Assembly (NCBI GenBank): GCA_014801875.1
Contig: JAAVDJ010000011.1
Span: forward strand, 20,014-56,199
Direction of reading: 5' to 3'
DNA from: Bacteroides sp.
Lineage (GTDB): Bacteria > Bacteroidota > Bacteroidia > Bacteroidales > Muribaculaceae
Length of the DNA stretch: 36,186 bases
Shown: positions 22,675 through 36,186 of the stretch, piece after piece
How the letters are laid out: each line of letters begins with the position of its first letter
Numbering within the stretch: the first letter of the stretch is position 1
The notes under the pieces: model-generated
Databases searched by the model: none
What the model saw: the letters and a program-made list of their open reading frames with translations, nothing else
Told to the model about the DNA's origin: nothing
Program-made: the position numbers and the translations under genes

Positions 22675-23181
22675 TTATTTATAATCCTTCAGGAGAGCCT
22701 GGAGGCGTTTGCGGGCGAAGAAAATACGGCTTTTAACAGTGCCGAGGGGGAGACCCATCTTTTCAGCGATCTCGCTGTATTTGTAGCCTGCTACATACAT
22801 TGAGAAAGGCACGCGGTATTCCTCTGAAAACTCCTTGATAGCCTGAGAAATCTCTTTAGCGGCGAAACTGCCCTCCGGAGTGGAAAGACCGGATTCCTGA
22901 GAAAGATTAAGATGATAAAGGTCTTCAGTCGTGTCAACCACAGTCGCGCTTCTAACTTGACGTCGATAGTTGTTGATGAAGATATTACGCATGATAGTGA
23001 AAACCCAACCCTTGAAGTTTACGTTGTCGACATATTTAGATTCGTTGTCGAGAACTTTCAGAGTGGTGTCCTGCACTAAATCCTGCGCCGTCTCACGACT
23101 GGTTGTAAGTTGATAGGCAAAGTTAAGAAGATTACCCTGCAATCCTAATAGTCTCTGTTTAAATGTTGCTGAATCTGCCAT
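22675..23181 (-). CDS. ECF-type RNA polymerase sigma factor (copy A)
   Basis: The 168-residue protein has sigma-70 region 2 (ETAQDLVQDTTLKVLDN... FKGWVFTIMRNIFINNYRR) and region 4 (EYRVPFSMYVAGYKYSEIAEKMGLPLGTVKSRIFFARKRLQALLKDY), with no region 1.1 or 3, as in ECF sigma factors. A paralog of the same length lies at 28529-29035 and shares RNIFINNYR and EDLYHLNLSQESGL. No anti-sigma gene is adjacent on either side, unlike the FecI/FecR pattern. Target promoters are unknown. A ~430-base non-coding leader lies upstream. Confidence 0.95.
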   Translation of the reverse strand: MADSATFKQRLLGLQGNLLNFAYQLTTSRETAQDLVQDTTLKVLDNESKYVDNVNFKGWVFTIMRNIFINNYRRQVRSATVVDTTEDLYHLNLSQESGLSTPEGSFAAKEISQAIKEFSEEYRVPFSMYVAGYKYSEIAEKMGLPLGTVKSRIFFARKRLQALLKDYK

Positions 23182-28528: not shown

Positions 28529-29035
28529 ATGAGCAGCAAACCATCTTTCGTAACATCGGTACTTGGAATGCAGGCAAATTTACGATCTTTCGCCTTGAAG
28601 CTTACCCTTGATAAGGATGAAGCTCATGACTTGGTGCAGGATACCACCCTAAAAGCTCTCAGTAATGAGGAAAAGTTTGTCGACAACACAAACTTCAAGG
28701 GCTGGATGCTGACCATCATGCGTAACATCTTCATCAACAATTACAGGAAGAGCACGCGGGAGAACACGATGACCGACAATACGGAGGATCTCTATCACCT
28801 AAACCTGAGTCAGGAGTCCGGTCTTGAAACGCCTGACGGCGCTTACGCTGTTAATGAAATTTCCCGGATTCTGGCCGGTTTCCCCGCTGATTATCGCGAG
28901 CCGTTTTCTCTCCATGTAGCAGGGTATAAGTATGAGGAGATTGCTGAATCCCTCAATATGCCTCTCGGTACAGTTAAGAGCAGAATCTTTTTTACCAGAA
29001 AGAAGCTTCGGGAAATCCTTAAGGATTATCGTTAA
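28529..29035 (+). CDS. ECF-type RNA polymerase sigma factor (copy B)
   Basis: The 168-residue protein, the same length as the paralog at 22675-23181, has sigma region 2 (EAHDLVQDTTLKALSN... FKGWMLTIMRNIFINNYRKS) and region 4 (DYREPFSLHVAGYKYEEIAESLNMPLGTVKSRIFFTRKKLREILKDY). The shared EDLYHLNLSQESGL linker shows the two arose by duplication. Unlike copy A it has a clear TATCTTTG promoter and its own terminator. No anti-sigma gene is adjacent; a small outer-membrane beta-barrel gene follows at 29209. Confidence 0.95.
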   Translation: MSSKPSFVTSVLGMQANLRSFALKLTLDKDEAHDLVQDTTLKALSNEEKFVDNTNFKGWMLTIMRNIFINNYRKSTRENTMTDNTEDLYHLNLSQESGLETPDGAYAVNEISRILAGFPADYREPFSLHVAGYKYEEIAESLNMPLGTVKSRIFFTRKKLREILKDYR

Positions 29036-29772: not shown

Positions 29773-29801
29773 TTGGAAGTCAAATTATTTTATTAATTTT
29801 G
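29773..29801 (+). promoter_or_regulatory. Promoter for the TPR regulator gene
   Basis: TTG at 29773-29775 and TAATTTTG at 29794-29801; spacer 18 bases. Confidence 0.5.
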
Positions 29802-29869: not shown

Positions 29870-31585
29870 ATGAGTATTAAGAGGTGTATAAGCTGTGGGT
29901 TTGTCTGGTTATTCTTCCTTAGCATGATGTTTGTCGGATGCAACCAACAGACAGAGGCGTGGTTGGAAATGGATGAGGCTGAGGCGTTGATGCAGGAGAA
30001 ACCTGATTCCTCTCTTGTAATTCTTAATAATATCACGACCTCCTCATTGCAGGGGAAGAAGGAGAAGGCAAGGTATGCTCTGCTTAAATCGATGGCATTG
30101 GATAAGAATTACATTGACACCACCAACTTCGATGTGCTGCAACCTGCGATCGATTATTATCCCAAGCATGGGACAGCGGATGAAAAACTCCGCACTTATT
30201 ATTATCAAGGTCGTATTTATCAGAATATGAACAATCCTTCACAGGCTCTGGAATGTTTCCTGAAGGGGGAAGATTTGGGAAAGGACATCGCTGATTCTAT
30301 AGTGTTCGCCCATTTGCTTACGGCACAGGGAACCATTTATTTTAGACAATACAATACCGATAAACTAATCGACTTGAACCTCAGAGCCGGAGATATCTAT
30401 ATGAAGAAGGGAAAGGTATGGTATGGATTGAAAGGCTATCTAAGCGCTTTGGATGCTGCCAATGTTAAACGCAACAAGAGTTTATGTGATAGTATAATGA
30501 AGTTGGTAGACAAAATAATTGAGGAACATCCTCAATTAAGAGTCCGTACCTTGCCCTCTGTGATAACTTATACAATAAAGTTTTCTTCAAAACAGGAGTT
30601 GGAGAAATTGCTTGATTCGGTAAAGGATGAAGATCTCCCGGACTATATAAAAATGAGTGTAGCCAATGGTTATAATGAATTAGGGGAGGGGGATAGAGCC
30701 CTTGGTTGGCTTACCGATCTGAATGTTGAGGGAGGAGATTCATTAAGGTATACGGCTATATTGATGGAGTCGTTGGAGTTGACGGGAGATTATGCCGGAG
30801 CTTTCAAGACCCTTCGGTCATATTTGCGATTGTCGGAAAAACGTTCATTAGATATTATCCGGGATGATGCTGTCTTCGCAGAAAAGCGACATAAGTTGGA
30901 GACTGAGAATCTCCGACAAATAAATAAAAAAAATAGCATTATATGGGGGTGCGTAAGTGGTGTGGTGATAGTCGTGAGTATGATAGGGTGGTTGCTTACC
31001 CGGCAACGGCTTCTTAGAACCGAGAAGGAGAGGATAGAGGAAAGGGCATCATTGTTAGAGTTGCAAAATAAATTCAATGAGGAGGAGAAAGAGAAACTGA
31101 AAGCAGAAATGGTTGCTCTCAGGTTGATTAAACAGGGGTTGGAGGAAGAAAAGGAGGATCTTGCCAATGCAGTTAATCAGCAGAAGGAGATTGGGGAAAA
31201 AGTGAAGAAGGTGTTGCAGGAACGAGTCGGTATCCTTAATGGACTCCTGTCGCAGGAACTGTCTTCACCAAGGAAACCGAACTCTTCTTTGGACAAACGC
31301 ATTGCTATAATATATGAGGACAGGGCTGCCTTTATAATAGCGACACGGAAAGCTTTTGAGGTGTCTCATCCAAGTTTTATTGAGCATTTGGTGTTCCGAG
31401 GGTTGACAGAGGAAGAAATCAATTATGTCTGCCTCTATGCGGTTGGTCTCAATGGCAAAAATGTGGGTGACTATATGAAAATGAAGGGCCATTATAATCT
31501 CAGCAGTGCCATAAGGAAAAAGCTGGGACTGGATGAACACGCCACTAATTTAGGCATTCACATACGCCGTCTTTTGAACGAATAA
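29870..31585 (+). CDS. Membrane TPR regulator with coiled coil and C-terminal HTH-like domain
   Basis: The 571-residue protein starts with a lipoprotein-like signal (FVGC around residue 24). A periplasmic tetratricopeptide array follows (about 30-340; YYYQGRIYQNMNNPSQALECFLKG). Next come one transmembrane helix (about 353-372, IIWGCVSGVVIVVSMIGWLL), a long Glu/Lys coiled coil (about 375-465) and a C-terminal helical domain (RGLTEEEINYVCLYAVGLNGKNVGDYM... IRKKLGLDEHATNLGIHIRRLLNE) that looks like a winged or LuxR-like DNA-binding module. This architecture is common in Bacteroidales beside DUF3244 and peptide-export genes, where it probably senses an envelope signal and controls them. Here it precedes the DUF3244-precursor-maturase-exporter set. 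Confidence 0.8.
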   Translation: MSIKRCISCGFVWLFFLSMMFVGCNQQTEAWLEMDEAEALMQEKPDSSLVILNNITTSSLQGKKEKARYALLKSMALDKNYIDTTNFDVLQPAIDYYPKHGTADEKLRTYYYQGRIYQNMNNPSQALECFLKGEDLGKDIADSIVFAHLLTAQGTIYFRQYNTDKLIDLNLRAGDIYMKKGKVWYGLKGYLSALDAANVKRNKSLCDSIMKLVDKIIEEHPQLRVRTLPSVITYTIKFSSKQELEKLLDSVKDEDLPDYIKMSVANGYNELGEGDRALGWLTDLNVEGGDSLRYTAILMESLELTGDYAGAFKTLRSYLRLSEKRSLDIIRDDAVFAEKRHKLETENLRQINKKNSIIWGCVSGVVIVVSMIGWLLTRQRLLRTEKERIEERASLLELQNKFNEEEKEKLKAEMVALRLIKQGLEEEKEDLANAVNQQKEIGEKVKKVLQERVGILNGLLSQELSSPRKPNSSLDKRIAIIYEDRAAFIIATRKAFEVSHPSFIEHLVFRGLTEEEINYVCLYAVGLNGKNVGDYMKMKGHYNLSSAIRKKLGLDEHATNLGIHIRRLLNE

Positions 31586-31799: not shown

Positions 31800-32162
31800 A
31801 TGAAGAAATTTTACATGGCCGTTGCGCTATTCTTTCTCTCATTGCTGAGCGTGTCGGCGAGAGGAGAAGAGGTCATAATTGACTATAATAAGAATGATCC
31901 CTCCTATCAGGGTGAAAAAGTAAATAGGATGCCCATGAGGATTCCTGTTCAAGTAAGCTATGATATAACAAAAGGTATCATAGAAGTTGAATGTGCGTCC
32001 CTGCAGGAAGGAATGATTTATATTTATGATGAGTATGGCGCTCTTGTTGGCTATGCCTCAAATCTGAACGCAGTCTTCCCGGTCTATTTCCCGGCCATCT
32101 ACTATATCCATTTGGAAGGGGAGAATTGGATTGGTAATGGAGTTATAAACGGGTTTTCTTGA
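31800..32162 (+). CDS. DUF3244-like small secreted protein
   Basis: The 120-residue protein has a signal peptide (MKKFYMAVALFFLSLLSVSA). The short beta-rich mature domain (IPVQVSYDITKGIIEVECASLQEGMIYIYDEYGALVGYA... YYIHLEGENWIGNGVINGF) matches the DUF3244 pattern of Bacteroidales, a small immunoglobulin-like fold. It lies 78 bases before the precursor peptide and may be cotranscribed. It could be an immunity, export-accessory or surface protein; none of these is shown by the sequence. A TAnnTTTG-like element (TATTTTG near 31761) is imperfect. Confidence 0.7.
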   Translation: MKKFYMAVALFFLSLLSVSARGEEVIIDYNKNDPSYQGEKVNRMPMRIPVQVSYDITKGIIEVECASLQEGMIYIYDEYGALVGYASNLNAVFPVYFPAIYYIHLEGENWIGNGVINGFS

Positions 32163-32240
32163 ATAAGAACGAAAGAAAAAATCGTAGAGACGAAAATAAA
32201 ACTGACAGTTATGTTGACTGTCTTTAATAAATATTTCATT

Positions 32241-32507
32241 ATGAAACAAACAGATCAAATTGCTGATTTCATCGATTCTCTCGGAGAGGATTCGATGCTG
32301 AAGGAGGAGCAATCCTTTCTGCTCTCTCCGGAAGTGAATGCCATGGGTGCAGGTCCTGGCGATAACGGAGGTTCTTGTGTTAATGCAGTTACAGATAATT
32401 GTAGCCATAAAAATGGTGGAGATTGCTCTAATTCAAAAGGAGCATGTAACGGTGCTGACAACAAGAAGGCATGTAGAAACCTCCCAGAAGAGTTTATGTC
32501 CTGCTGA
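32241..32507 (+). CDS. RiPP precursor peptide with six-cysteine core
   Basis: The 88-residue peptide, counted from the ATG at 32241, has a leader MKQTDQIADFIDSLGEDSML then KEEQSFLLSPEVNAMGAG. Residues at -4 (Met), -7 (Val), -8 (Glu) and -12 (Leu) relative to a cut after MGAG match the double-glycine leader pattern read by C39 peptidases, although -2 is Ala. The core, about 50 residues, has Cys at 46, 54, 62, 69, 78 and 88, with recurring NGG-S/D-C and C-x-N phrases and no Trp or Tyr. Such Bacteroidales precursors are usually modified by a neighbouring radical SAM maturase. The alternative start at 32211 adds ten residues not typical of the leader. 40 bases before the maturase gene. Confidence 0.8.
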   Translation: MKQTDQIADFIDSLGEDSMLKEEQSFLLSPEVNAMGAGPGDNGGSCVNAVTDNCSHKNGGDCSNSKGACNGADNKKACRNLPEEFMSC

Positions 32508-32547
32508 ATTAAATTTTCCTGAACTATCCTATCTATTGATTCCTATC

Positions 32548-33849
32548 ATGAATCTTCGACAAAGCCATTATAACAGTGTAATACATGTAGCTGAAGCGCA
32601 TACTATTATTTTCAATGCCTTGAGTGGATGCTTTATTATCGTCCGCAATAAACTCCTTCCAAAAGAATGGAATTTGAATAGTATTCAAATTGAAGATTCA
32701 CTTCTTTTCTCACAAATGGTAAAGGGTGGCATGATAGTAGAGGATGAGGTAGATGAGATAGAATTGGTAAGGACAAAGATTGCAGAGTCTGAGAACAATG
32801 CCAACCAGTATATACTACATATCAACCCAACTGTTGATTGTAATTTTCGCTGTTGGTATTGTTATGAGAATCACAAGGTGGATTCCAGAATGTCAAAAGA
32901 CGTTCTGGAATCCATTAAAGCCTTTATAATCCACAAAGTGGAGGAGGGAATCAAGGTTTTCCATCTGGATTTCTTTGGTGGAGAACCTTTGCTTGAGTTT
33001 GATAACGTCGTGAAACCTCTCATCCTTACGACTAATAGTCATTGTAAGAATAACGGAGTTAAACTGTCCATTCATTTTACGACTAATGGATCACTATTAA
33101 ACGATAGGATAATTGAGTTTTTAGCAAACTATGAATGTACATTCCAAATTACTCTGGATGGTGGTAGGGATACTCACAATAAGACACGCTTTTTCAAGGG
33201 TGGTAAAGGGAGTTATGATTTAATACTTGAGAATATACAGAAATTACTAAGTCAAAAATTATTTGTCCAATTACGTATTAATTACACTTCTTCAAATATA
33301 GATAGTGTTAGAGACATGAATGAGTTCCTTAGTAATATTTCAGATTCTTGCAAGAAATATATTAATATTGATTTTCAAAGAGTCTGGCAGGATAAGAAAC
33401 AAGTTGAGGATAATACAGAAAAGAAGGCAGAGGGATTAAGAGAGGGTTTAATACAATTAGGCATGCAAGTCGTTCCTTCTTATCTTCCGGATAATGTAAC
33501 TAATCCTTGTTATGGAGACAAAATCAATCATCTTCTTATCAATTATGACGGTAAAGTGTTCGGTTGCACAGCCCGTGATTTTAACGAAGACAACAGTATT
33601 GGATGCCTTAATCAAGATGGGACTGTAAGTTATAAAGAAACAAAAATATTACAACGAAGAGCAGCAAAATTCTCAAAAAAAATATGTCACACCTGTAGAA
33701 TTGCTCCATTATGCGGAGGCGGATGTAGGCAGGTGGCAGTAGATACCCTTTCCTATCCAGGGTGTAGTATGGGATACTCTGAAGAGGATATAGACAAAAT
33801 GATACTTCAAATATTTAGAAAAAATTATTTAAATCAGAAGACAGATTAA
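32548..33849 (+). CDS. Radical SAM/SPASM peptide maturase
   Basis: The 433-residue enzyme, counted from the ATG at 32548, has an N-terminal region that may be a peptide-binding (RRE-like) domain (SHYNSVIHVAEAHTIIFNALSG). The radical SAM motif is CNFRCWYC (Cys 98, 102, 105), then FFGGEPLLEF and FTTNGSLL. The C-terminal SPASM domain carries auxiliary-cluster cysteines: CYGD, FGCTARD, ICHTCRIAPLCGGGC and YPGC. Enzymes of this class install thioether or C-C crosslinks in ribosomal peptides. With a Cys-only core next door, sulfur-to-carbon crosslinks are the likely chemistry (inference). Longer upstream starts overlap the precursor in another frame and lack family likeness. Confidence 0.9.
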   Translation: MNLRQSHYNSVIHVAEAHTIIFNALSGCFIIVRNKLLPKEWNLNSIQIEDSLLFSQMVKGGMIVEDEVDEIELVRTKIAESENNANQYILHINPTVDCNFRCWYCYENHKVDSRMSKDVLESIKAFIIHKVEEGIKVFHLDFFGGEPLLEFDNVVKPLILTTNSHCKNNGVKLSIHFTTNGSLLNDRIIEFLANYECTFQITLDGGRDTHNKTRFFKGGKGSYDLILENIQKLLSQKLFVQLRINYTSSNIDSVRDMNEFLSNISDSCKKYINIDFQRVWQDKKQVEDNTEKKAEGLREGLIQLGMQVVPSYLPDNVTNPCYGDKINHLLINYDGKVFGCTARDFNEDNSIGCLNQDGTVSYKETKILQRRAAKFSKKICHTCRIAPLCGGGCRQVAVDTLSYPGCSMGYSEEDIDKMILQIFRKNYLNQKTD

Positions 33850-33877
33850 TTCTTGAGAGGAAATTTTAGTTATTGAT

Positions 33878-36049
33878 ATGTTTAAATGTTACAGACAACT
33901 GGAATATTCGGATTGCGGTTTATCCTGTATAAGGATGATTGCAAAACATTATGGAGTCGAGATTCCATTGAAAGTTTTAAAGTCTTTCACTGATTTAAAC
34001 CGCCTTGGCTTATCAGTAAAGGATATTGAGACTTGCTGTAGGAAAATTTGTTTAAAAGCAATAGGGGTAAAGATTGGGGGAGAGAAACTTTATAGTGTGC
34101 CACTTCCTGCGATTATATATTGGCGTCAAGGACATTTTGTTGTGCTGTATAAAATTGATAAAAAACGAAAGATTTTTTATGTGGCTGATCCAGCTGAGGG
34201 AAAAGTAAGGTATGATGAAGAATTCTTTCTTAAATGTTGGCTACCGTCTACAGGAAGCAGGGGTATTGTAATAGTATGTGGGCCGACTGAAGGTTTTTCG
34301 TCTATACATTATCCCCATGAACGACCGTTATGGGAACTGTTCAATTATATATTTTCGTATATACGAAAGTCCAAATCTCCTTTTTCGGTAATTTTACTTT
34401 TATCGCTCACAATAATTGCAGCTGATTTTGCTATACCATTATTACTTACAAGAACGGTTGATGTTGGTATAAGGGAGAAAGATATCAACTTCATCGTATT
34501 GTTATTGTTAGGGCAGTTAGGAGTATTCGTAGGTAGTATTGTTTCAGCATGTTTTTTTGATTATTTCCTTAATAGAATAGGGCTCACAGTAAATAAAAAG
34601 ATGATGGGAAACTTTTTGAGGAGTCTTATAAAATTTCCTATTTCTTTTTTTGACAGGCGTGTCAGTTCAGATTTTATAGAGAAAACCGAAGATCAGACAC
34701 GAATAAAAGATTTCCTTTTGGATTTCCCAGATACAGTGCTTGTTATGTGCTTGAATCTTTTGGTATTTTCGGTTCTTTTGTGGAAATATAGTCCGGAAAT
34801 ATTCGTATTTTTCTTTTTAATATCATTTTTAGAGATTGGGTGGACGGCTCTTTTTGTAAATAAAAGAAAATCCCTTAATTATGCTACCTTTGTAAATTCT
34901 TCCGAGAACAGGACTCATATATTTGAACTAACTAACGGTTTACCTGAACTAAAAGTAAATAATGCAGAGGAGATAAAATTAAAAAAATGGGAGGAATTAC
35001 AAGATAGAATCAATGTTGTCGGGAATAAAAGGTTAAGACTTAATTTTTCTCATAATATGGGAAAGAATATATTATCAAGATGTAAGGAATTATTGGTCAC
35101 GGGAATTAGTGCTATAATGGTAATTAATGGAGATATGAGTATAGGAGTTATGATGACGCTTGGTTATATTACAGCAAGACTTTCACAGCCTTTCTCCATG
35201 TATAGTACTTCTCTAAATACTTTACAGGATGCACTTATTTCTTTTCAGCGAGTAGGTGAGATTCTGAATCCAACTTTTGAAAAAAGGGGGGAAAGGAAGA
35301 TTGAAGGATACGATTTGTGGTTTTCCGGATTGTGGTTTAAATATCCGGGAAATTCATCTCCTTTCGTAATCAAGAATCTTGATTTGAGTATTGAAAGTGG
35401 ATCCATGACAGCCTTAGTTGGGGAGAGTGGGAGTGGAAAATCAACATTAATAAAATTGATGCTTGGTTTTCATAATCCTTCAAAGGGAGATTTTAAGATT
35501 GGTAATATTCCGATTCAAGAAATAGATATTCAGGATTGGCTAAGTCATTGTGGGGTTGTGATGCAAGGAGGGAAGGTATTCACTTCGACTATTCTTGAAA
35601 ATATTGCAATGTCTGATGAAAGCCCTGATTTGGAAAATGTCTTATCGGTTTTAGAATCTGTAGGTCTCAAAGAGTTTGTAGATAGTCTTCCAATGGGAAT
35701 CCATACCCGATTGGGGGTGTCAGGTTTGGAACTTAGTGGGGGACAAGTACAAAGACTCTTGATTGCGAGAGCGATGTATAAGAAACCTCAGGTTCTTTTT
35801 CTTGATGAAGCTACTTCTTCATTGGATGCTAATAACGAGCGTATCATCGTAGAAAATATCAGGAGATTCAAAAAGGGAAGGACGCTTATTGTTGCAGCTC
35901 ATCGATTAAGTACGGTTATGGATGCTGATAAAATAGTATTTATAAAGAATGGTATTATTAGCGAGCAGGGAACGCATCAGGAACTGGTGGATAAGAAGGG
36001 AGATTATTGGAAACTGGTAAAAAATCAATTACAGTTGTCAAGCTGTTAA
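33878..36049 (+). CDS. C39-peptidase-containing ABC exporter (PCAT)
   Basis: The 723-residue protein cuts double-glycine-type leaders and exports the peptide. The C39 domain (1-125) begins CYRQLEYSDCGLSCIRMIAKHYG with catalytic Cys 13; His is in GHFVVLYKI and Asp in VADPAEG. A six-helix membrane domain follows (about 160-440). The ATPase domain has Walker A VGESGSGKSTL (about 514), signature LELSGGQVQRLLIARAM (about 618), Walker B VLFLDEATSSLD and the H-loop His in AAHRLST. All catalytic residues are present. It follows the maturase by 28 bases and is the natural exporter of the precursor at 32241-32507. A membrane-fusion partner is not in the window. Confidence 0.95.
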   Translation: MFKCYRQLEYSDCGLSCIRMIAKHYGVEIPLKVLKSFTDLNRLGLSVKDIETCCRKICLKAIGVKIGGEKLYSVPLPAIIYWRQGHFVVLYKIDKKRKIFYVADPAEGKVRYDEEFFLKCWLPSTGSRGIVIVCGPTEGFSSIHYPHERPLWELFNYIFSYIRKSKSPFSVILLLSLTIIAADFAIPLLLTRTVDVGIREKDINFIVLLLLGQLGVFVGSIVSACFFDYFLNRIGLTVNKKMMGNFLRSLIKFPISFFDRRVSSDFIEKTEDQTRIKDFLLDFPDTVLVMCLNLLVFSVLLWKYSPEIFVFFFLISFLEIGWTALFVNKRKSLNYATFVNSSENRTHIFELTNGLPELKVNNAEEIKLKKWEELQDRINVVGNKRLRLNFSHNMGKNILSRCKELLVTGISAIMVINGDMSIGVMMTLGYITARLSQPFSMYSTSLNTLQDALISFQRVGEILNPTFEKRGERKIEGYDLWFSGLWFKYPGNSSPFVIKNLDLSIESGSMTALVGESGSGKSTLIKLMLGFHNPSKGDFKIGNIPIQEIDIQDWLSHCGVVMQGGKVFTSTILENIAMSDESPDLENVLSVLESVGLKEFVDSLPMGIHTRLGVSGLELSGGQVQRLLIARAMYKKPQVLFLDEATSSLDANNERIIVENIRRFKKGRTLIVAAHRLSTVMDADKIVFIKNGIISEQGTHQELVDKKGDYWKLVKNQLQLSSC

Positions 36050-36144
36050 GTGATCAGGGAAGATTGTTTATAAGATATATTACAAGTCATGAGTTTGACA
36101 TCAAAATCTGTTTTAAATTATTATCTATTTTATATTTTTTCATC

Positions 36145-36186
36145 ATGAACTATTTTTATAGAGGCTTGAAATTTATGGGAGTGGGA
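36145..36186 (+). CDS. Possible start of another gene, cut by the window end
   Basis: An ATG opens a frame reading MNYFYRGLKFMGVG with no stop before the window ends. Fourteen codons are too few to recognise. The preceding ~95 bases after the exporter are AT-rich. It may be the next gene of the peptide cluster. Confidence 0.25.
   Translation, partial: MNYFYRGLKFMGVG

Follow-up and report, generated by a model that had tools for sequence, protein, structure and literature searches.

The window analysed here, a stretch of 36,186 nucleotides from an assembly of Bacteroides sp. (genome G000, contig C11, positions 20014-56199), ends with a locus for a ribosomally synthesized and post-translationally modified peptide (RiPP). 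This locus seems to represent an apparently undescribed family of RiPPs from Bacteroidales, known from its genes alone, in which cysteines would be joined to asparagines by thioethers, the peptide would leave through a C39 exporter and an outer-membrane barrel would provide self-protection or act as a receptor; we put the probability of this reading at roughly 0.55. Three genes of the + strand form the visible locus and encode a precursor peptide of 88 amino acids (32241..32507), a radical S-adenosylmethionine (SAM)/SPASM peptide maturase of 433 amino acids (32548..33849) and a C39 peptidase-containing ATP-binding cassette (ABC) exporter of 723 amino acids (33878..36049). The original prediction, made from the letters of the window, had placed them at these coordinates with gaps of less than 45 bases; the gaps measure 40 bases between precursor and maturase and 28 bases between maturase and exporter. 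It had also proposed a complete-looking RiPP locus. The genes and motifs bear out the three genes and the type of locus, with a leader of the double-glycine type besides the C39 exporter, but completeness is unproven, as the contig (56199 bases), whose end is also that of the window, stops 137 bases after the exporter. The barrel gene of the relatives is not seen in this terminal stretch (36050..36186, no strand) and may lie beyond it or be absent.

The precursor would consist of a leader (residues 1–37) and a core (residues 38–88). Six cysteines in 43 residues had been counted in the core and are indeed there (C46, C54, C62, C69, C78 and C88), but conservation extends to the first five only: C88 is variable and an extra cysteine follows the fifth one in 15 of 25 aligned precursors. 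In this alignment, seven positions are invariant (F10, C46, N48, C62, N64, C69 and C78) and four are almost invariant (I7, G36, C54 and N58). Steps from one cysteine to the next are 6–11 residues long, mostly 7–9, and the pattern N-x2/3-C-x-N occurs at Cys 1, 3 and mostly 5; in the precursor of the window, the asparagines of the register are residues 42, 48, 58, 64 and 74. Counts of the register were made on the 23 long-type precursors, as the two short-type rows are unaligned at Cys 2. All 23 have an asparagine in the segment before each of the five cysteines (115/115 segments) and 18 have one within six residues after Cys 5. At Cys 1, 3 and 5, an asparagine is found at -3/-4 in 23, 23 and 22 precursors and at +2 in 23, 23 and 15; at Cys 2 and 4, it is found at -3/-4 in 5 and 10 precursors and at +4/+5 in 22 and 21. 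Four related short-type precursors, whose fifth cysteine is the last residue, carry N or D at -3 of all 20 cysteines (16 N and 4 D, D being located before Cys 3) and an asparagine at +2 of 14 of them.

The conserved partner of the cysteines is thus an asparagine in a fixed register and not an aspartate at +4. The C-x3-D signature, previously singled out as one used in some ranthipeptides, is found at only 7 of the 115 conserved cysteines (and at 11 of 198 cysteines over 39 distinct cores) and was rejected as a crosslink motif; the CNGADN of the window precursor sits at the C-x2-S-x-N position of the family. No Pfam or NCBIfam model matches the precursor at E ≤1, and the search for a TIGR04149-type precursor returned no NCBIfam family at this threshold, TIGR04149 presumably being part of the library used. 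Cleavage after MGAG, as first proposed, is not favoured by the alignment with the MGG of relatives, which points to cleavage by the C39 peptidase after MGA (residue 37).

A scan of genome contigs revealed 55 related loci, and precursors recur near the maturase, which rules out a chance occurrence. A maturase tree of 53 sequences (quick method, midpoint root) was built from the maturases of 50 of the 55 loci, from that of the window and from two others of the same genome; L028, L051, L055, L057 and L059 were left out, as no long frame was recovered. One clade (SH-aLRT 97) groups 28 rows, with little difference between some of them and none between L009 and L010, and 24 of these 28 have a precursor matching the profile of the 25 precursors within ~4.3 kb in the same locus. 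A short leader-bearing precursor therefore lies beside a modifying enzyme in a linkage repeated across genomes, and the possibility, raised beforehand, that homologs of the maturase always come without such a peptide is excluded. Among the four other rows, L007 and L030 have only 299 and 0 bases upstream, no precursor lies in the 6 kb upstream in L012, where only 154 bases follow downstream, and L026 carries a different Cys peptide. The precursor gene is mostly 5' of the maturase gene, but 3' of it in L013, L014, L017, L019 and L020. The host of the window, a gut bacterium, probably belongs to the Muribaculaceae, as the precursor of L018, labelled as Muribaculaceae, is identical to that of G051, a genome of the same genus. 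Many maturases outside the clade, including two from the genome of the window, accompany other Cys-rich double-glycine peptides. At E ≤1e-80, the maturase was found in 16 of 297 family-level genomes; among 101 close relatives, 15 have it (own genome counted). Apart from the protein itself, the best 120 of 4573 homologues share 43–54% identity with it, and a search with the precursor alignment recovered only 15 proteins from 221 candidates. Carriage by plasmids was rejected, as the 172 plasmid records matching the maturase are all below 60% identity (23.5–41.7% for the eight listed). In L016, L020, L053, L118 and L129, a single maturase is accompanied by at least two distinct precursors of this family.

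The maturase carries a CxxxCxxC motif (C98/C102/C105) and seven SPASM-type cysteines (C321, C340, C380, C383, C389, C393 and C406); in 50 aligned sequences, all these cysteines are invariant, save C340, which is kept in at least 90%. The Pfam domain Radical_SAM is over its cut-off and SPASM is below (15.5 vs 21.5 bits). The structure model has a mean predicted local distance difference test score (pLDDT) of 92, and its N-terminal strand-and-helix region reads as similar to a RiPP recognition element. The best 25 of 65 NCBIfam matches are all below cut-off: the top one is CefB (NF038107, 167.7 bits vs 600), the model of the ranthipeptide maturase PapB reaches 142.6 bits (cut-off 340) and the SCIFF maturase model TIGR03974 96.9 bits (cut-off 425), and cyclophane-type models also match weakly. 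Membership in the CefB, TIGR04463, Clo7bot, PapB, geopeptide and SCIFF models was therefore rejected. In a fold search, the SCIFF maturase CteB (5why, 5wgg) comes first, TigE second and SkfB (6efn) 22nd; CteB is also the closest solved structure by sequence.

This kinship, with CteB closest and PapB among the matches, suggests that the maturase forms thioethers, and the conserved register suggests that asparagines would be the acceptors. The view that a thioether product is likeliest, already held in the original prediction, thus gains support from CteB, by sequence and by fold, and from the PapB match, although below cut-off. Of the two styles it had left side by side, ranthipeptide-like and sactipeptide-like, the former is the best reading of these comparisons (CteB, PapB), whereas the hairpin nesting of the latter is disfavoured by cysteines that are evenly spread. 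According to the available part of PMC8326336, the peptide NxxcA has an Asn20-Cys23 beta-thioether and CteA joins Cys32 to Thr34 or Thr37, so that both upstream asparagines (-3) and downstream partners (+2, +5) have precedents.

Two other chemistries would account for the conserved cysteines. A sactipeptide, with the cysteines joined to alpha-carbons, perhaps those of asparagines, in a hairpin and with the register reflecting the fold, seems rather improbable. Asparagine does belong to the known sactionine acceptors, but in nearly all sactipeptides the donor cysteines are N-terminal and the acceptors C-terminal, forming a hairpin (both according to the available part of PMC8326336). The structure entries of CteB are moreover titled as sactipeptide work. 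However, the cysteines of the precursor are evenly distributed over the core rather than confined to its N-terminal half, no recognised sactipeptide-maturase model is found among the best 25 of 65 NCBIfam matches and SkfB ranks only 22nd by fold. Radical SAM/SPASM enzymes catalyse the formation of many products, and another change (epimerisation, C-C or C-O crosslink), with cysteines serving for disulfides or metal binding after export, would agree with the weak matches to cyclophane-type models and with the second rank of TigE, but it is made unlikely by the lack of a conserved aromatic pair in the core, by the invariance of Cys and Asn among core residues and by a thioether maturase as the closest fold.

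The exporter matches Peptidase_C39, ABC_membrane and ABC_tran, all over cut-off, which makes it a C39 exporter (peptidase-containing ABC transporter), and it carries Walker A and LSGGQ motifs; its relatives are found near the maturase in other loci. A search for membrane-fusion proteins in the genome of the window (76% complete), which did not cover outer-membrane factors, gave six HlyD_3 matches, none of them on contig C11, and a dedicated membrane-fusion protein was therefore rejected for this locus.

In relatives, a gene encoding an outer-membrane barrel of ~700 amino acids was found in 24 of 30 neighbourhood rows, seven rows having supplied queries, and also, by Pfam, in L024; among loci with maturase, the barrel is present at 24 of 29 (L024 included, degraded L057 not counted). 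Three of the five loci without barrel (L008, L018 and L030) are cut on the side where close relatives carry it. One barrel type also stands without maturase. With the barrel of L005 as sole query (E ≤1e-100), two overlapping genome sets gave 16 matches in 12 genomes (101 relatives) and 17 matches in 13 genomes (297 family genomes), corresponding to 20 loci. An intact maturase accompanies the barrel at four of them (G052:C11, G032:C39, G007:C76 and G030:C26) and is absent from 12 (G000:C15, G009:C11, G028:C30, G031:C28, G029:C38, G007:C32, G291:C19, G255:C25, G277:C31, G237:C108, G233:C43 and G109:C86); at the four others, the contig stops on the maturase side (G003:C315, G041:C6, G020:C137 and G233:C2). 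The barrel is therefore beside an intact maturase at only 4 of 16 determinable loci, with the reservations that the downstream side of G028:C30 and G233:C43 is cut by a contig end and that little sequence follows the exporter or exporter stub in G009:C11 and G109:C86. As the survey relied on the L005 barrel, this asymmetry holds for one barrel type.

Barrel frames have no internal stop in 17 of 18 cases checked, and stubs of cluster genes remain at 5 of the 12 solo loci. The profile detects a leader without core in G031:C28 (E 0.006) and in G109:C86 (E 0.002), and another is visible by eye in G007:C32. Ends of the maturase remain in G029:C38 and G007:C32. The first 34 to 50 residues of the exporter persist in G007:C32, G255:C25 and G109:C86, and its first 63 residues in the contig-cut locus G003:C315. 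In G007:C32 (L109 7106-10169), the leader-like start runs directly into the maturase remnant; the middle part of both the maturase and the exporter is missing, while the barrel between them is intact. In G029:C38 (L115 8499-10532), a second barrel located 3' of the exporter has an in-frame stop.

The genome of the window itself harbours such a solo barrel (G000:C15), 78.6% identical to that of L005; precursor, maturase and exporter were not found within ~8 kb on either side. A transporter gene adjoins it, with a counterpart at the edge of the L005 locus, ~5 kb from the L005 precursor. In L005, however, this transporter adjoins another barrel (24% identity), so that the two locations do not simply correspond to each other. 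The solo barrel looks to be under purifying selection, as its ratio of nonsynonymous to synonymous substitution rates (dN/dS, Nei-Gojobori) is 0.091 over 667 codons, compared with 0.057 over 173 codons of the neighbouring transporter. Identity between the clusters of the window and of L005 reaches only 46% for the maturase and 56% for the exporter; the window cluster therefore represents a different copy of the system. Beside the solo barrel, a gene (L086 6874-7806) encodes a 310-amino-acid protein whose 117 C-terminal residues are 38% like the C-terminal part of the tetratricopeptide repeat (TPR) protein of L005.

A barrel gene that stays intact while the adjoining producer genes are lost would be expected if it conferred immunity or if the barrel served to receive a shared product; the solo barrels suggest one or the other, and these genomic data do not separate the two. 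Gut Bacteroidales are reported to carry orphan immunity genes directed at type VI secretion toxins. The boldest version of this scenario combines both halves: one enzyme would stitch cysteines to the regular asparagines along the whole core, and the barrel would confer self-protection; relatives and the genome of the window would have retained it as an orphan immunity gene after loss of precursor, maturase and often exporter. As a whole, this combination is tentative, with about one chance in four by our own estimate.

Alternatively, the barrel could be only the outer-membrane exit of the exporter, solo copies serving other ABC exporters or functions, a proposal that we regard as possible but doubtful. 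The barrel gene adjoins an ABC gene in many loci, and barrel and exporter are kept together at three of the 12 loci without maturase (G009:C11, G031:C28 and G029:C38), which an export-only role fits. In addition, the available text of PMC10352776 reports C39 exporters with an outer-membrane protein and without a membrane-fusion protein from other clusters of Bacteroidales. Such a role nevertheless explains poorly the barrels found where the exporter is reduced to 34–63 N-terminal residues (G007:C32, G255:C25, G109:C86 and G003:C315) or was not found. The barrel could also be an uptake receptor of the metallophore type, the Cys/Asn peptide being a secreted scavenger of a metal or cofactor and the solo barrels belonging to non-producing cheaters. 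Solo barrels without producer genes would agree with this, as would OMP_b-brl_3 matches in the barrels of L053, L021, L024 and L109 and the carboxypeptidase-regulatory and Plug matches, below cut-off, of the L021 barrel; however, no metal-related genes were noticed in the loci, though no search was aimed at them, and this uptake role appears unlikely.

Several points weigh against the thioether-forming family with a protective or receptor barrel. Concerning the chemistry, asparagine is common in the core, so that the register partly reflects composition. In a control with shuffled non-Cys residues over the 39 distinct cores, asparagine exceeds expectation at +2, -4, -3 and +5 by 13.2, 6.8, 6.1 and 4.4 standard deviations, but this control ignores relatedness, some cores being near copies, and anchoring on the first C-x-N inflates the value at +2. 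The NCBIfam matches of the maturase are far under cut-off (168 vs 600 bits for CefB). Cys-to-downstream-Asn pairing fits a fixed spacing in 104 of 115 cells and pairing of an Asn at -3/-4 with the downstream Cys in 83 of 115, whereas Asn-to-downstream-Cys gains support from the short subtype and from the Asn that always precedes Cys 1; both pairings therefore stand. Concerning the barrel, the intact exporter is retained at the three loci mentioned above, and neither stub nor exporter is seen at six of the 12 solo loci (G000:C15, G028:C30, G291:C19, G277:C31, G237:C108 and G233:C43), which may therefore never have had a cluster; the TPR-like fragment beside G000:C15 is the sole hint of a lost cluster among them. 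Among the 16 maturase-bearing genomes of the 297-genome set, 12 have no match to the L005 barrel, although each of the four that were fetched (G349, G323, G346 and G208) has a more distant barrel near the maturase. The window and L027 have no barrel at the usual places, only the stretch past the contig end being open, and Pfam recognises neither the barrel of L005 nor the solo barrel of the genome of the window, both of which owe this designation to their resemblance to the other barrels. Finally, all comparisons rest on metagenome-type assemblies.

For a Cys-Asn thioether peptide, the following model can be proposed. The maturase would bind the leader and its radical SAM cluster would activate the side chains of the regularly spaced asparagines. 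Nearby cysteines would then attack the activated asparagines, so that several small thioether rings between Cys and Asn would form along the core, in a ranthipeptide-like manner. The C39 exporter would cut after MGA and transport the core through the inner membrane. In relatives, the barrel encoded with the maturase or exporter would act at the outer membrane, most likely in self-protection or as a receptor of the peptide and possibly also as its exit.

Two genes precede the precursor gene on the + strand. The first one (29870..31585) encodes a TPR protein that is a likely regulator, with a match to the BT3442 family below cut-off and a weak TPR match; its start reads as lipoprotein-like and its C-terminus as regulatory. 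Relatives of this protein occur in 13 of 30 neighbourhood rows, a count that indicates placement and not independent detection, as several rows supplied queries. The second one (31800..32162) encodes a small protein modelled as a DUF3244-like beta-sandwich, probably exported judging from its signal-peptide-like start. It has phmmer matches upstream of the maturase in L014, L037 and L008; its model has a pLDDT of 74 and its best PDB match (DUF3244, 3d33) is weak, with an E-value of 2.9e-3 and none at E ≤0.001. Small proteins of this exported type are found in 10 of 30 neighbourhood rows, which again speaks for placement only, as most of those rows supplied queries. A motif, TANNTTTG, lies upstream of genes at 29794 and 31701 and also within the exporter gene (34885 and 34918); it is too short to rely on. 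Further upstream, the window encodes two related 168-amino-acid proteins that read as sigma-factor-like (22675-23181 on the - strand and 28529-29035 on the + strand).

Other RiPP-type loci were noticed in the same genome. One is present on contigs C9 and C24 (L061 1404-3079 and L062 2406-4081) and encodes a 75-amino-acid Gly/Cys-rich precursor, a 444-amino-acid maturase, barrel-like proteins and a C39-type exporter; both copies have the same precursor and proteins alike in length and start, and could result from a duplication or be an assembly copy. Contig C1 (L063 961-4714) carries a further maturase, a 67-amino-acid Cys precursor and a barrel relative. Three proteins encoded beside these loci, TPR-type by reading, have near-identical starts (L062 17-1747, L063 3-686 and L063 7782-9500), as if the 5' part of their genes had been duplicated or converted between loci.

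Bacteroidales are common in the human microbiota, and their capacity to make RiPPs is described as largely unknown in the available part of PMC10352776 (Fernandez-Cantos 2023), which reports no homologues of described immunity proteins. The present family offers a simple Asn/Cys rule for the core that is open to test, a maturase with a confident model and, in the barrel, a candidate immunity or receptor gene picked because it is intact at loci without producer genes. Core chemistry and barrel role are both accessible to laboratory expression and gene removal.

In the literature searched, no description of this precursor family was recognised, nor any known product from an identical precursor, the other outcome that the original prediction had named as telling against it; nor does Pfam or NCBIfam offer a model that fits the precursor. 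The nearest account is that of PMC10352776, which mined Bacteroidales for RiPPs. The clusters in its available text resemble the system of the window by their GG leader and C39 exporter, radical SAM enzyme, TPR genes and outer-membrane protein, and differ in that this text mentions neither an Asn/Cys register nor solo barrels; some overlap with its BGC1 or BGC2 may exist, as the distinction relies on text descriptions. CefB is the top NCBIfam match of the maturase, but membership in CefA/CefB was rejected, the 167.7 bits being under the cut-off of 600, and cysteines occur there at every fifth residue versus steps of 6–11 here. Freyrasin and PapB share with the family a repeated Cys motif with a polar acceptor and a model match of 142.6 bits; membership was rejected on account of this score (cut-off 340) and of C-x3-D at 7 of 115 conserved cysteines. 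NxxcA/NxxcB from Streptococcus are like the four short-type precursors in having an asparagine three residues before the cysteine (aspartate before Cys 3 in the latter), a likeness of peptide pattern; NxxcA has one ring, according to the available text on it, versus five conserved cysteines here. The SCIFF/CteB system shares with the family several cysteines in a core of ~45 residues and a SPASM maturase, and it provides the closest solved structure; the +2 and +5 spacings given for CteA in the available part of PMC8326336 are also found in this family. Membership in SCIFF was rejected (TIGR03974, 96.9 vs 425 bits; precursor without NCBIfam match at E ≤1), and the two systems differ by the acceptor, threonine in CteA and asparagine here, and by the C39-type leader and exporter of the family described here.

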